Positions 2,137 to 54,915 of a DNA stretch of 64,000 bases are shown here, piece after piece. The stretch is from Lactiplantibacillus garii. GTDB taxonomy: Bacteria; Bacillota; Bacilli; Lactobacillales; Lactobacillaceae. The translations under genes were made by a program, and so were the position numbers. Each line of letters opens with the position of its first letter. Positions within the stretch are counted from its first letter, which is position 1. The notes beneath the pieces are model-generated. The model saw nothing but the letters and a program-made list of their open reading frames with translations, was not told where the DNA came from and did no database searches. Location of the stretch: the NCBI RefSeq assembly GCF_003885105.1, contig NZ_QWZQ01000005.1, positions 1 to 64,000 on the forward strand. The letters run 5' to 3'.

Positions 2137-3330
2137 TTACTTTGCCTCCGCTGCTTTTTGTTCCACGTATTTACTAATGCGTTCAACCGCCGTCTTTAAA
2201 TTATCCATTGAAGCGGCGTAACTAATCCGAACGTAACCTTCACCACCGGGGCCAAACGAACTCCCCGGAATTAAAGCGACCCGCGCTTCGTGGGCTAATT
2301 CCCGGCAAAAGGCCATGCTGTCCTGGGGTAAGCCCGCGGGAATTTTACTGAACAGGTAAAAGGCCCCTTCCGGCTTGGCCGATTTGAACCCAATTTTATT
2401 TAGCGCTTCGTACAAGTAGTCACGCCGTTGCTGGTACTCCCGCTTCATGTCCTGACCATCATCCATGCCGTTGCTCAACGCTTCGGCAGCCGCGGCCTGC
2501 GCGTTAGTGGTCGTTGAGGTGACCGTAAACTGGTGAATCTTTCCTAATTGCGCCGTTACGGCCTTAGGTGCGCACATGATCCCGATTCTCCAGCCAGTCA
2601 TGGCGTGAGACTTCGACACCCCGTTAAGTAAAATGGTTTGTTCCGGTAAGTATTTGGCAATCGAAACGTGGGCTTCGCCGTAAGTTAACTCGCTGTAAAT
2701 CTCATCGGATAAAACGAAAATCGGTTTGTCGGCTAAGACCGCGGCTAAAGCTTTCAAATCGTCCTTGCGGTAAGTTACCCCGGTTGGGTTGGACGGGAAG
2801 TTTAGGACGACCGCCTTAGTTTTCGGGTGGGCCGCCAAGGTTTCCTTTAACATTTCCGGTGATAAGACAAAGCCGTTCTTAGACGTGTCCATAAAGACCG
2901 GCGTCGCGCCGTTTAACTTGGCAATCGCAATGTACAGTGGAAAGATGGGGGTTGGGATCAAGACTTCGTCACCGGGGTTCAAAATTGAACTCAAAGCGGT
3001 GTAAATCCCCCCGGTCGCACCGGCGGTAATGATCACTTCACTCGCCGGATCGTAGTGGACATCGTACTTCTTTGCCAAGAAGTTGGCCGCCGCCGTCCGT
3101 AACGCCATTGTCCCGTTTGACGGAGCGTAGTGACTTTCATTATTTTCGATACTTTGAATGGCGGCCTGCTTAACGTGTTCCGGCGTATTGAAATCCGGTT
3201 CACCAAGTGTTAAGCGCACGATTCCGGGAATGTTGGCAATTTCCGCGTTAAAAGCTAAAATATCGGACGGTTGGATCGCGGCAATCTCGTGATTCATATT
3301 TTGAACTAAAGTTTCTGGACTAATTGACAT
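2137..3330 (-). CDS. Class I PLP-dependent aminotransferase, probably aromatic/branched type
   Basis: The 397-aa fold-type I aminotransferase has the family signatures FPSNPTG (near 184), the PLP-lysine motif SKSHAMTGWRIG (near 240) and a conserved Arg region near the C terminus. It resembles AraT/PatA-type enzymes of lactobacilli, which move amino groups from aromatic or other hydrophobic amino acids to 2-oxoglutarate. The start is ATG 3330, seven bases after GGGAGGAA; an in-frame upstream TTG overlaps that site and is unlikely. It leads an operon with the D-hydroxyacid dehydrogenase. A 310-nt leader with an aromatic-rich peptide and attenuator-like hairpins precedes it and supports an aromatic substrate. 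Confidence 0.85.
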   Translation of the reverse strand: MSISPETLVQNMNHEIAAIQPSDILAFNAEIANIPGIVRLTLGEPDFNTPEHVKQAAIQSIENNESHYAPSNGTMALRTAAANFLAKKYDVHYDPASEVIITAGATGGIYTALSSILNPGDEVLIPTPIFPLYIAIAKLNGATPVFMDTSKNGFVLSPEMLKETLAAHPKTKAVVLNFPSNPTGVTYRKDDLKALAAVLADKPIFVLSDEIYSELTYGEAHVSIAKYLPEQTILLNGVSKSHAMTGWRIGIMCAPKAVTAQLGKIHQFTVTSTTTNAQAAAAEALSNGMDDGQDMKREYQQRRDYLYEALNKIGFKSAKPEGAFYLFSKIPAGLPQDSMAFCRELAHEARVALIPGSSFGPGGEGYVRISYAASMDNLKTAVERISKYVEQKAAEAK

Positions 3331-3383: not shown

Positions 3384-3462
3384 AAAAAAAGACGCACCCC
3401 TTGAAAATTCAAAGGGTGCGTCACTAAAAAACACTTTAATTAGCCACCCTTGGAATTTTCAA
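3384..3462 (-). terminator. Leader terminator with competing antiterminator
   Basis: On the minus strand a 13-bp hairpin (3391-3422, arms beginning GACGCACCC) is followed by seven U, a classic intrinsic terminator inside the aminotransferase leader. The preceding segment 3445-3462 is complementary, in two blocks of 7 and 10 bases, to the terminator's 5' arm and loop. The two structures therefore exclude each other, as in transcription attenuators. Confidence 0.8.
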
Positions 3463-3559
3463 ACATCCATGGGCGCCGTTCAATCACAAAAAGCTTTTGG
3501 CAACCGCATCGATGCAAACATCGAGTCCGTGTTTGCACCTGATACAGCCGGCACAAACA

Positions 3560-3622
3560 CTAGCGAAAATACCAAAAGTAAAAGCTAGTTGAAGTTTTTA
3601 TGTGATTTAACGGTAATGACAT
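3560..3622 (-). CDS. Leader peptide rich in aromatic residues, 20 aa
   Basis: A 21-codon frame starts at ATG 3622, eight bases after a perfect GAGGAG site, and ends TAG at 3560. The translation is MSLPLNHIKTSTSFYFWYFR: residues 14-19 are Phe-Tyr-Phe-Trp-Tyr-Phe, directly before the last codon. The stop codon overlaps the first of three complementary segments: 3550-3560 can pair with 3529-3539, which can instead pair with 3511-3522. The terminator/antiterminator follows. This is the layout of a ribosome-dependent attenuator for aromatic amino acids. The frame and pairings are seen; regulation is inferred. A T-box leader is the main alternative. Confidence 0.7.
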   Translation of the reverse strand: MSLPLNHIKTSTSFYFWYFR

Positions 3623-3652
3623 ATCATTAGCTCCTCATCAATTGTTAATCTA

Positions 3653-3681
3653 ACTATAACGATTCAAAGAATCACTGTCAA
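3653..3681 (-). promoter_or_regulatory. SigA-type promoter of the aminotransferase operon
   Basis: The minus strand carries TTGACA (3681-3676), a 17-base spacer and TATAGT (3658-3653). Transcription would begin near 3646, giving a leader of about 310 nt before the aminotransferase. Confidence 0.75.
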
Positions 3682-3731: not shown

Positions 3732-4361
3732 TTGACTTACCAAGCACTAATGTTTGATATTGACGGCACCTTGACCAACAGTCAGCCAGCGTACACACTC
3801 GTGATGCGCCAAGTTTTACAAGAATATGGTATCGGTTTCACCGCCGCTCAGGCCCAGAAAACTTTTCCGATGGCCGCGGAACAGGCCATGGCCGAACTCG
3901 GCATTCCCGCCGACCAGTTCGACCACTTTCAGGCCCGTTACGAAGCCGTTATGGCCGACCACTATGGCGACATTCAACTTTACCCGGGAATCGAAACGTT
4001 GTTTGCTAACTTGCCCCAAGAACTTAAACTAGGCATCGTTACCTCCCAACGACGTAACGAAATGGAAACTGGCATGCAGCCCCACGCGACCGTCATGTCC
4101 AAATTAGCCGTTGCCATCAGTGCGGATGACACGCCCAAACGCAAACCGGACCCGCTACCGCTACTGACCGCCCTGAAACGGGTCAACGTCGCTCCCGACA
4201 AAGCCCTCTTCATTGGTGACTCCCTCAGTGACGAACAAACCGCGGCGGCCGCGGGCGTTGACTTTGGCCTTGCCGTTTGGGGCATGGATCCTAACGCGGC
4301 TCACCAACGCGTGGCCCACCGACTCAACCACCCGGACGACGTCTTACAACTACTCAAATAA
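3732..4361 (+). CDS. HAD-family phosphatase, phosphoglycolate phosphatase-like
   Basis: The 209-aa cytoplasmic HAD hydrolase has all four motifs: I, FDIDGTLTNS near residue 8, with the nucleophile and acid Asp; II, VTSQ near 103; III, the Lys in KRKPDP near 138; IV, GDSLSDEQTAAAAG near 162. The helical cap between motifs I and II marks subclass I (PGP/beta-phosphoglucomutase group). Substrate is not predictable. The likely start is TTG 3732 after AGAAGGG; nearby ATG codons are out of frame. It diverges from the aminotransferase leader and shares its short promoter region, with a TATACT -10 near 3692. Confidence 0.8.
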   Translation: MTYQALMFDIDGTLTNSQPAYTLVMRQVLQEYGIGFTAAQAQKTFPMAAEQAMAELGIPADQFDHFQARYEAVMADHYGDIQLYPGIETLFANLPQELKLGIVTSQRRNEMETGMQPHATVMSKLAVAISADDTPKRKPDPLPLLTALKRVNVAPDKALFIGDSLSDEQTAAAAGVDFGLAVWGMDPNAAHQRVAHRLNHPDDVLQLLK

Positions 4362-4411: not shown

Positions 4412-4605
4412 GGTTCCAGCTCTTTTACCAATCAAAATCTTAATTACTTTATTCAATTGCTTGTTTTACAATTCCAAACTAGTGCACACTATTAAATCCG
4501 CTATCAGGAACAATTGAGTTAGTTAACACACACTTCAGAAAATTTAAAAGGATTCGAAACCTTCGCTACCTAATTCCATTACCCGGCACCTGCTAACTCA
4601 GTTGA

Positions 4606-4880
4606 CCTAGCTTGTTTCAAATTCCGCCTATCAATTCCAAGTTAGTTCGCACTTTCCAGCCCTCCGGTCGGCGTGGACAGGCCCGGAACGCGGTGGGCAC
4701 AAGCCTGAGCCCATAACCCAGGTCTCAACCATTGGCCTTTCACTAGGCCGGGAAAATACCCCGACTAAGTGAAATTTCACCGCTGGGGCCATCCACGCTC
4801 TCCCTCCAGGCTTCAACTAGTCGTTGGCGGGCCGTAACTACTAATTTATTTAACCTCAATAGCACGTTGCTTGGAATACT
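4606..4880 (+). repeat. Dispersed structured repeat, family A, copy 2
   Basis: Closest relative of copy 1 and in the same A-hairpin-B order. The core closes with GCGTGGA/TCCACGC; an arm TTTCACT/AGTGAAA carries an inner CGGG/CCCG stem. The loop ACAAGCCTGA and the segment GGTCTCAACC are conserved among copies. An open frame on the reverse strand is an accident of the repeat. Confidence 0.75.
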
Positions 4881-4978
4881 TGGTTTTAAATGCCAACCGG
4901 ATTAGGTTTCGCTCACTAACAATAAATTATCTTTAATCTATTACGCCTAAAACTTTAAAAATTTTCATAGCGTTGCGT

Positions 4979-5029
4979 AAAAATCGTCAGTAAGTTGAGA
5001 ATTTCTTTCTCAACTTACTGACGATTTTT
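4979..5029. terminator. Perfect 23-bp inverted repeat, two-way terminator
   Basis: Arms 4979-5001 and 5007-5029 are perfectly complementary around a 5-nt loop, with five A before and five T after. It can terminate transcription from either side and separates repeats A2 and B2. Confidence 0.85.
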
Positions 5030-5127
5030 AATCCAGTGAAACTAAATTCTAGTTATCTTAGAAATAACAGGTAATTCCCAAAGTTATTCCAATTAGAATA
5101 TTAATCCTAACCGACTCAACTACTTGT

Positions 5128-5363
5128 CCAATCTAAATAATGAGATTCCATCTAGGCGCCCGGTGAAGTTTTGGCATATAGCTGTGAGATTGTTGTTGGT
5201 CGCGGTCTTTTTGCGATTAACAACAAGGCCAGCTTTTGAGATGATTCCGGGCTTTGGAATTAGCTCAAAAGTGGGCCCACAGCTAGTCATACCAAGGTAC
5301 TTCGCAGGGGGCCGGAGCCTAACGACAGCCACCGTGGGTCACTACTCAAATAATTGTTCAAAT
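5128..5363 (+). repeat. Dispersed structured repeat, family B, copy 2
   Basis: It has the same three-way-junction layout as copy 1: outer stem with GAAG/CTTC (GCAG/CTGC in copy 1), TAGCTGTG/CACAGCTA, a 14-bp arm from TTGTTGTTGGTCGC and GCGATTAACAACAA with two G-U pairs, and a 15-of-16 arm from CTTTTGAGATGATTCC. Pairing is kept although the sequence drifts. Confidence 0.75.
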
Positions 5364-34854: not shown

Positions 34855-34926
34855 CTGCCCGGGCTGGGATCGAACCAGCGACCTCTTGATTAACAGTCAA
34901 TTATTCTACCGCTGAACTACCGGGCA
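34855..34926 (-). tRNA. tRNA-Asn (GTT anticodon)
   Basis: The 72-nt minus-strand gene folds as a cloverleaf: acceptor TGCCCGG/CCGGGCA, D arm with AGCGGTA, anticodon loop CTGTTAA giving GTT, and the T loop GGTTCGATCC, with G as discriminator. No CCA is encoded. Confidence 0.95.
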
Positions 34927-54744: not shown

Positions 54745-54893
54745 AATTGTTTCTAGCTGCTTGGTCAAAATGTCTGTCACCAGTCTCACAACTGGTTTTT
54801 GTAATTGCCCTGTAGAGTGCAGTCCCTGACGTCACCCGTCGATTGTCGATAAACGTCATCCTCGTCAACTTTAAAACTTAAAGTCCTGGCGCT
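54745..54893 (-). ncRNA. glmS ribozyme
   Basis: The minus-strand leader contains the self-cleaving glmS RNA, activated by GlcN6P. Conserved parts are AGCGCC at the cleavage site (A at 54893, cleavage before G 54892), a P2 stem from GACTTTAA, TTGACGAGG, GTTTATCGA and CGACGGGTGACGTCA in the core, and the P3-P4 region further on. It ends about 25 nt before the glmS start. Cleavage lowers glmS mRNA when GlcN6P is plentiful. Confidence 0.93.
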
Positions 54894-54915
54894 ATTCCGA
54901 TTTAACCAATTAAAA

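Follow-up and report, generated by a model that had tools for sequence, protein, structure and literature searches.

The window, by which we mean the whole 64-kb stretch of Lactiplantibacillus garii DNA analysed, carries on its minus strand a promoter, a short leader frame, a set of complementary segments, an intrinsic terminator and two closely spaced genes. In the order of transcription, and with peptides here and below written up to the stop codon, these are:

3681-3653, minus: sigma-70-type promoter, TTGACA-17-TATAGT, matching 11/12 positions in a consensus scan
3622-3560, minus: leader peptide MSLPLNHIKTSTSFYFWYFR, 20 codons, ending F-Y-F-W-Y-F-R-stop (translation)
3578-3572, minus: segment A, CTTTTGG, within the codon run and complementary to E (pairing in the alignment)
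3560-3550, minus: segment B, GTGTTTGTGCC, its first base being the last base of the stop codon; partner C
3539-3529, minus: segment C, GGTGCAAACAC; partners B or D (alignment pairing and swap test)
3520-3507, minus: segment D, TGTTTGCATCGATG; partners C or F (alignment pairing)
3500-3494, minus: segment E, CCAAAAG, complementary to the codon run at A (alignment pairing and swap test)
3475-3464, minus: segment F, CGCCCATGGATG; partners D or G (alignment pairing and swap test)
3460-3445, minus: segment G, GAAAATTCCAAGGGTG; partner F (as anti-antiterminator) or T1 (as antiterminator)
3422-3391, minus: intrinsic terminator of 14 pairs followed by T7, with T1 at 3422-3409 and T2 at 3404-3391
2137-3330, minus: gene 1, PLP-dependent aminotransferase, PRK07309-like (NCBIfam, 572.9 bits, cutoff 576)
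1142-2134, minus: gene 2, D-2-hydroxyacid (D-lactate-type) dehydrogenase, 2 nt past gene 1 (NCBIfam)

The promoter, the 20-codon frame and the terminator that a sequence-only reading of the window had described are all present; the frame is preceded by a GAGGAG Shine-Dalgarno sequence and has six aromatic codons directly 5' of its last codon. The segments which that reading had set at 3550-3560, 3529-3539 and 3511-3522 were placed correctly, and its antiterminator arm exists too, with an extent of 3460-3445 in place of the 3445-3462 it gave. Segment E, which pairs with the codon run, and segment F, which links D to G, go beyond it, as do the relatives in other genomes. The leader folds with -98.1 kcal/mol, against -63.2 +/- 4.3 kcal/mol for its shuffles (z = -8.2), and shuffles of the region hold 0.5 terminators on average.

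Sequence relatives in the PDB include 4my5 and 1dju for the aminotransferase, and 4xkj, 1j49 and 1dxy for the dehydrogenase. Homologues of the dehydrogenase gene stand directly behind the same kind of leader at two further loci, L127 (58% identical) and L252 (38%). On the other side of the leader, a divergent HAD-family phosphatase-like gene (3732-4361, plus) has the intergenic region in common with the leader promoter. Two copies of a dispersed repeat of ~600 nt, 80-87% identical to each other, lie on either side of the locus (451-1076 and 4593-5324); the repeat has 30 matches in the same genome, itself included, many of them full or partial copies. Elsewhere in the window there are a glmS ribozyme/riboswitch (54753-54904, minus) and a tRNA gene (34855-34926, minus). 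The Rfam model BTnc201 matched over the hairpins from F to the terminator with 35.6 bits, under its gathering score of 105, and was set aside.

By plain DNA similarity, the window leader matches 33 of the 397 genomes of the family, including genera whose aminotransferase is only ~62% identical and one genus (g34) in which a transketolase is the following gene. We built a covariance model, R1, from 22 of these DNA-similarity relatives. At E <= 0.01, R1 matched 128/397 genomes and 21/40 genera in the family, and in the order Lactobacillales 215 of the 395 sampled genomes (54%) and 56 of 80 genera, counts that are inflated by relatedness. In the class, 33/398 genomes from 10/146 genera were matched, four of these 33 lying outside the order, in two genera. 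Those of the outside leaders that were read carry the run; the gene behind it is an aminotransferase at L256 and a DAHP synthase at L274, and L277 and L279, likewise outside the order, precede the same DAHP synthase gene as L274. The element is not a local one: the RNA is found through much of the order.

As R1 includes the codon run, its matches favour aromatic runs, and a second model, R2, was made against this circularity from 28 sequences of other families, leaving out the family of the window. Its only match at E <= 1 in the window is 3586-3438 on the minus strand, that is, the leader itself (53.8 bits, E = 1e-9). Starting instead from the aminotransferase, the R1 element lies just upstream of the gene in 19 of 80 relatives (E <= 0.008), among them members of Lactiplantibacillus, Liquorilactobacillus, Weissella, Sporolactobacillus, Bombilactobacillus, Agrilactobacillus, Lentilactobacillus, Pediococcus, Secundilactobacillus and Loigolactobacillus, and 61 are without it at that level. 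When 20 aminotransferase loci without the element were scanned for other known leaders, nothing reached gathering level apart from RNase P and tRNAs. A search of the 397 genomes for the aromatic-codon-run pattern matched 258 of them, but the reversed control was by eye about as frequent and the search was discarded as useless.

The genome of the window holds three copies with an aromatic run. Besides the window leader, one stands before a TrpX-like gene with a peptide ending QFAFSFFFR, and a weak one (L369, E = 0.13) before an MFS gene with a peptide ending AYYFGLVYFR. A fourth member, L368 (G000:C103:55262-55394, minus; E = 0.0065), has the peptide MTKFVLNLNSSWQSRPFRL, which ends SSWQSRPFRL and has no aromatic run; downstream lie a second ABC binding protein, 37% identical to the first, and a permease-like gene. 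The sequence-only reading had named two findings that would speak against it, a significant T-box match with an aromatic specifier and orthologues that keep the stems and lose the peptide frame. Neither occurs among the leaders examined; the weak L368 does keep the RNA without an aromatic run. In genus g12 (L121, L123, L125, L126), a second attenuator copy follows the TrpX-like gene, with peptide ends such as AYYYGYFG and AGFFFG, and these loci are apparently tandem transporter units with one leader each.

We assembled 205 loci among the matches listed, 190 of them non-redundant and 202 with a downstream gene; they were drawn from 100 regions of the family scan and 40 of the order scan, each supplemented by automatically collected loci. 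These 202 genes fall into 15 clusters, each named from one member (NCBIfam, Pfam): aminotransferase (73), TrpX-like ABC binding protein (68), aroE (19), amino-acid permease (7), transketolase (7), MFS (6), DAHP synthase (4), D-hydroxyacid dehydrogenase (3), ilvA (3), ilvE (3), PTS_EIIC_2 (2), aroC (2), ilvB (2), LivJ-like (2) and serC-like (1), where LivJ is our reading of a Peripla_BP_6 match and serC of an Aminotran_5 match. The permease cluster comes closest in NCBIfam to the branched-chain transporter BcaP, at 595.6 bits for a cutoff of 690, and the one TrpX-like protein that was scanned scored 313 against the TrpX cutoff of 390. One of the MFS transporters (L097, 481-1962), encoded behind an aromatic attenuator, has a fused C-terminal chorismate mutase type II domain (Pfam), and the L369 transporter from the genome of the window, also behind an attenuator, is 72% identical to it over the full length. 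The locus before the serC-like gene (L171, 251-381) matched R1 with E = 0.0047, has no aromatic run and reached only 16.6 bits with R2 (E = 0.3); we regard it as a probable false positive and left it out of the class counts. Its peptide, MKKITINIYTLSSKSTYYTCRLIS, has several Ser codons, and a Ser-coded relative is a possible, if less probable, reading of it.

Leader ORFs were picked by the strength of their Shine-Dalgarno sequence, not by composition. An ORF with such a ribosome-binding site was found at sequence level in 189/190 non-redundant leaders, and the Shine-Dalgarno sequence spans at least 4 nt in 184/186, a frequency inflated by this way of picking. The remaining leader, L153, whose flank is cut by a contig end, ends YYYYWFR before a DAHP synthase-like gene. 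We defined as our own 'aromatic' class the 176 leaders other than those before ilvA/B/E, LivJ-like and serC-like genes; it includes the permease, MFS, PTS_EIIC_2 and dehydrogenase clusters (17/176). Over the last eight codons of this class, Phe, Tyr and Trp account for 885 of 1408 codons in frame; the two remaining frames give 241 and 233. Before the clear aromatic genes (aminotransferase, TrpX-like, aroE, aroC, aroF and transketolase), F/Y/W codons outnumber I/L/V codons in 158 of 159 leaders.

The ten leaders before ilvA/B/E or LivJ-like genes, all from five genera of one family, have a different content: F/Y/W exceeds I/L/V in 0/10, and their last eight codons comprise 49/80 Ile, Leu or Val and 0/80 Phe, Tyr or Trp, the frame control for I/L/V being one that does not discriminate here (49/80 in frame against 43/80 in the next frame). 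These branched-chain leaders are true members of the RNA family: R2, a model made from sequences that do not include them, gives them 67-83 bits. One genome, G623, holds three copies, with SFYFSFFR before a TrpX-like gene, LLLISVIR before ilvB and PLIISIIR before ilvA. The codon run thus fits the operon, with the six leaders before BcaP-like permeases (L132-L135, L187, L188) as a possible exception: they carry Phe codons (for example YAFAFSLFG), so that either the permease name is wrong or gene and codons do not match. A Trp codon occurs among the last eight in 0/61 TrpX-like leaders, compared with 50/70 aminotransferase leaders. Since these leaders are free of Trp codons there and the protein scores under the TrpX cutoff, the TrpX-like protein is likely to be a Phe/Tyr transporter.

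For the pairing between segments, 105 R1 matches were aligned and pairs were counted per helix. The model used for the alignment contains A:E, B:C and F:G; C:D and D:F are absent from it and are thus not favoured. B:C is 94.9% paired and A:E 97.4%, with changes on both sides in all 11 and all 7 of their pairs, respectively, and pairing reaches 91.5% for C:D, 87.3% for D:F and 88-99% for F:G. In B:C and D:F together, 18 of 19 pairs have changed on both sides, with a covariation of 0.342 compared with 0.201 when shuffled (reached by 0/500 shuffles) and at most 0.112 when slid. A:E, C:D and F:G together have 24 of 26 pairs changed on both sides and a covariation of 0.498 against 0.205 when shuffled (0/500). 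An alignment with related leaders had been proposed in the sequence-only reading as a check, and it came out in its favour, as the relatives keep the frame and the aromatic run and their stems show changes on both sides.

Coevolution of the links was also apparent in a swap test, in which the pairing of a member's own segments is compared with the mean of swaps across genera (94/103 members usable). Own segments paired better than swapped ones for A:E in 91, B:C in 84, C:D in 89, D:F in 86, F:G in 90 and G:T1 in 90 of the 94 members, and the non-links E:G, B:D, D:G and F:T1 stayed at chance (42-53/94). The value for T1:T2, 94/94, holds by construction, the terminator having been picked by folding. 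A terminator under -8 kcal/mol is present in 100/103 aligned members, so that covariation, swap test and terminator scan all support a set of exclusive helices that includes an intrinsic terminator. The stop-codon region additionally pairs with D in 83/96 members, in agreement with the structure line of the Rfam family RF02863. The D:F helix of the window has a G-G mismatch, and a mismatch in this helix is common to the Lactiplantibacillus leaders.

Seventeen leaders, from Agrilactobacillus, Lentilactobacillus, Pediococcus, Secundilactobacillus and Loigolactobacillus, have a short form without B and C, in which D is found at the stop codon instead. Their D:F pairing is equalled by 0-7 of 100 shuffles per leader, the shuffles having been scanned at half the positions, which slightly favours the real sequence. 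Since two links are lost together, the short form keeps the on/off logic, and we see in it the strongest argument for a relay beyond covariation.

Taken together, these results make it very probable that the window leader controls transcription by ribosome-mediated attenuation, sensing charged aromatic tRNAs through a seven-segment relay, and belongs to one re-addressed RNA family. Sequence, homology, reading frame, the agreement of codons with gene class, and the covariation and coevolution of the links are observed; from them we infer the ribosome positions, the timing of folding and the physiological direction. Attenuation by a leader peptide with aromatic codons, as the sequence-only reading had it, is strongly supported by the lack of a T-box, the conserved frame and run, and the covarying stems. 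The link between ribosome and terminator, which it had left unresolved, is here proposed to run via D:F and F:G.

In the proposed relay of B, C, D, F, G, T1 and T2, each segment would pair with the preceding or the following one, giving the mutually exclusive helices B:C, C:D, D:F, F:G, G:T1 and T1:T2. A shortage of Phe-, Tyr- or Trp-tRNA would stall the ribosome in the codon run, where it would cover A and leave B free; B:C, D:F and G:T1 could then form, making T1 unavailable for the terminator and allowing read-through into the operon. With plentiful charged tRNA, the ribosome would reach the stop codon, which adjoins B, and cover B, so that C:D, F:G and the terminator T1:T2 would form and transcription would end. 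Without a ribosome, A:E could close, which would disfavour D:F and again lead to termination. The same homologous RNA, mainly of Lactobacillales, would be re-addressed by a change of codons, aromatic or Ile/Leu/Val, matching the downstream genes.

Folding energies agree with parts of this scheme. Without a ribosome, the mean equilibrium probability over 98 members is 0.60-0.69 for A:E and 0.02-0.08 for D:F. For the window, the helix sums are -29.2 kcal/mol for the ON state, -24.8 kcal/mol for OFF and -13.6 kcal/mol for ON with B masked. After removal of isolated pairs, helix energies were obtained for 96/103 members (7 dropped). With the helices enforced, moving the ribosome from the run to the stop codon shifts the balance towards OFF in 92/96; ON is favoured by a stalled ribosome in 55/96, and both states come out right in 35/96, the window not being among these, and in 49/96 when plain helix sums are used. 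The enforced ON-OFF difference for the window is +5.6 kcal/mol with the ribosome stalled and +9.1 kcal/mol with it at the stop, a shift in the right direction with no change of sign. In equilibrium folding the window RNA did not flip, C:D remaining at a probability of ~1 and A:E at 0 whether the ribosome was placed in the run, placed at the stop or left out. Since real attenuation is kinetic, we do not consider this failure fatal to the switching step that we infer.

A simpler switch, in which G pairs with either F or T1, C:D is purely structural and there is no seven-segment relay, would account for the C:D helix that equilibrium folding of the window keeps at all ribosome positions, and for the D:F mismatch of the Lactiplantibacillus leaders. 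However, D:F covaries over the 105 sequences even though it is absent from the alignment model and passes the swap test in 86/94 members, and the short form retains D:F directly at the stop codon without B and C; we therefore regard this simpler design as unlikely. Arrest by the nascent peptide, with the ribosome stalled by a free aromatic amino acid or a drug and not by a lack of charged tRNA, has a precedent in TnaC, a peptide which together with a free aromatic amino acid stalls its ribosome. In its favour, Arg directly precedes the stop in 96/176 aromatic-class and 10/10 branched-chain leaders, and an ending -S-x-x-R-stop recurs. Yet the peptide changes freely and in step with the gene, F, Y and W replacing one another and I/L/V versions occurring on the same RNA, and the recurring codons for Ser and Arg are part of RNA segments with E and D as pairing partners, which can account for them without a peptide motif; we give arrest a low probability.

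The two remaining explanations concern known RNA classes. RF02863 (Enterococcus sRNA_2410), presumably named after the E. faecium study of that RNA, reaches its gathering score, with the match at the same place, in 14 of 37 related loci (L128 and 13/20 in another set) and stays under it in 23/37. The window leader scores 24.5 bits for a gathering score of 61 and so falls outside the family as defined. Since R1 and R2 match both, RF02863 is nevertheless, by this homology, the same element as the window RNA. The E. faecium RNA was described from RNA-seq, Northern blots and qPCR as a discrete 195-nt species with two transcripts, and no role is given for it in the accessible text (PMC5593968). It could be a trans-acting small RNA whose position upstream of an operon is fortuitous, as the label 'Enterococcus sRNA 2410' implies, and RF02863 does start within the leader ORF (52 nt inside that of L225, at 261 for an ORF start at 209) and not at a promoter, suggesting that the RNA is processed or has a separate start. 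Against this, the RNA ends in a terminator followed by aromatic genes in the same direction in several families, and the codon run is matched to the gene. As mapped, sRNA_2410 is not simply the whole terminated leader, but a terminated and perhaps trimmed leader would also yield such a short RNA; we consider a purely trans-acting RNA very improbable, a second role in trans being possible. Least credible of all is a T-box riboswitch with uncharged aromatic tRNA as its direct ligand and the short ORF incidental. In the G arm there is a stretch, AGGGTGG, that resembles the beginning of the T-box motif AGGGUGGNACCGCG. T-boxes are also frequent at amino-acid genes of Firmicutes, as the accessible text of PMC2965389 indicates. 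But the T-box check that the sequence-only reading had called for gave no RF00230 match on the window leader at E <= 5, which places it outside that family, and AGGGTGG is by eye not kept beyond close relatives, whereas codon run, frame and Shine-Dalgarno sequence are. None of the 37 related loci has a T-box at gathering level except L127, where the attenuator stands before the D-hydroxyacid dehydrogenase gene and a T-box (1577-1815, 123 bits) follows ~1.2 kb further on.

With a charged-tRNA-sensing attenuator as the preferred reading, the operon behind it can be viewed anew. Its enzymes, an aminotransferase and a D-2-hydroxyacid dehydrogenase, are both reversible. The predicted induction by starvation, together with relatives of the leader before aroE, aroC, aroF, transketolase and transporters, suggests that aromatic amino acids are what the operon provides, with keto or D-hydroxy acids as the starting material. 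The production of aromatic 2-hydroxy acids such as phenyllactate, which the sequence-only reading had assigned to the operon, becomes doubtful for the same reasons, and the aromatic 2-hydroxy-acid metabolism of food lactobacilli becomes testable as a starvation response.

More broadly, one homologous, re-addressable attenuator RNA, a seven-segment relay, probably forms a main aromatic-supply regulon in much of Lactobacillales, with its codons setting the input and its segments lost or gained in pairs. The genes it reaches serve aromatic transport, the shikimate pathway, transketolase, transamination and even branched-chain metabolism, and its input codons are aromatic or branched-chain, perhaps others too. 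In the usual account, the amino-acid genes of Firmicutes are mostly under T-boxes and proteins, with few leader-peptide attenuators; an attenuator family with matches in 54% of the genomes sampled from the order would change this T-box-centred picture. If our reading is true, the sRNA family of RF02863 would be explained and gain a function, and the substrates of transporters could be predicted from leader codons. Some TrpX- or BcaP-like transporters would then serve Phe/Tyr, as the leaders of the former have no Trp codon among their last eight and those of the latter have Phe codons. The long, short and re-coded forms offer a natural series for testing how RNA relays pass the position of a ribosome on to RNA polymerase.

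Among known systems, the enteric trp, his, phe and ilv operons are controlled by ribosome-mediated attenuation. Like the window RNA, these attenuators combine end-product codons in a leader ORF, exclusive helices, an intrinsic terminator and a signal given by ribosome position. The family described here differs from them in sequence and architecture and in its occurrence in Lactobacillales: it has the additional links D:F and F:G, its codon run pairs with a distal segment, its stop codon adjoins a switch segment, and one homologous RNA is re-used with different codons. We found no description of this relay RNA family in the open-licence literature among the matches listed, and the matched text of PMC7724050, PMC3166299 and PMC9426450 makes no mention of the element.

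Leader-peptide attenuation in a Firmicute has been reported for ilv of S. aureus, with a leucine-rich attenuator peptide; judged by its description in the accessible text, that system resembles ours in kind and differs in responding to branched-chain amino acids (PMC5794164). Naville and Gautheret (2010) predicted His leader-peptide attenuators before hisS and hisZ in bacilli; these are likewise predicted Firmicutes attenuators, with histidine in place of an aromatic run, and the word 'aromatic' is absent from the main text as far as accessible (PMC2965389). Also on an aromatic pathway, uORFC-13-1 before aroF of Acholeplasma is a predicted uORF attenuator with a Phe-coding U run, known, by the description in the accessible text, from 24 sequences of Acholeplasma and environmental origin only (PMC8632094). 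The closest counterpart, RF02863, is filed as an sRNA gene, with a start inside the leader ORF and a definition that does not reach the window. The relay family, in our reading, works like the classical attenuators and not like a T-box, and is the same RNA as that Rfam family.
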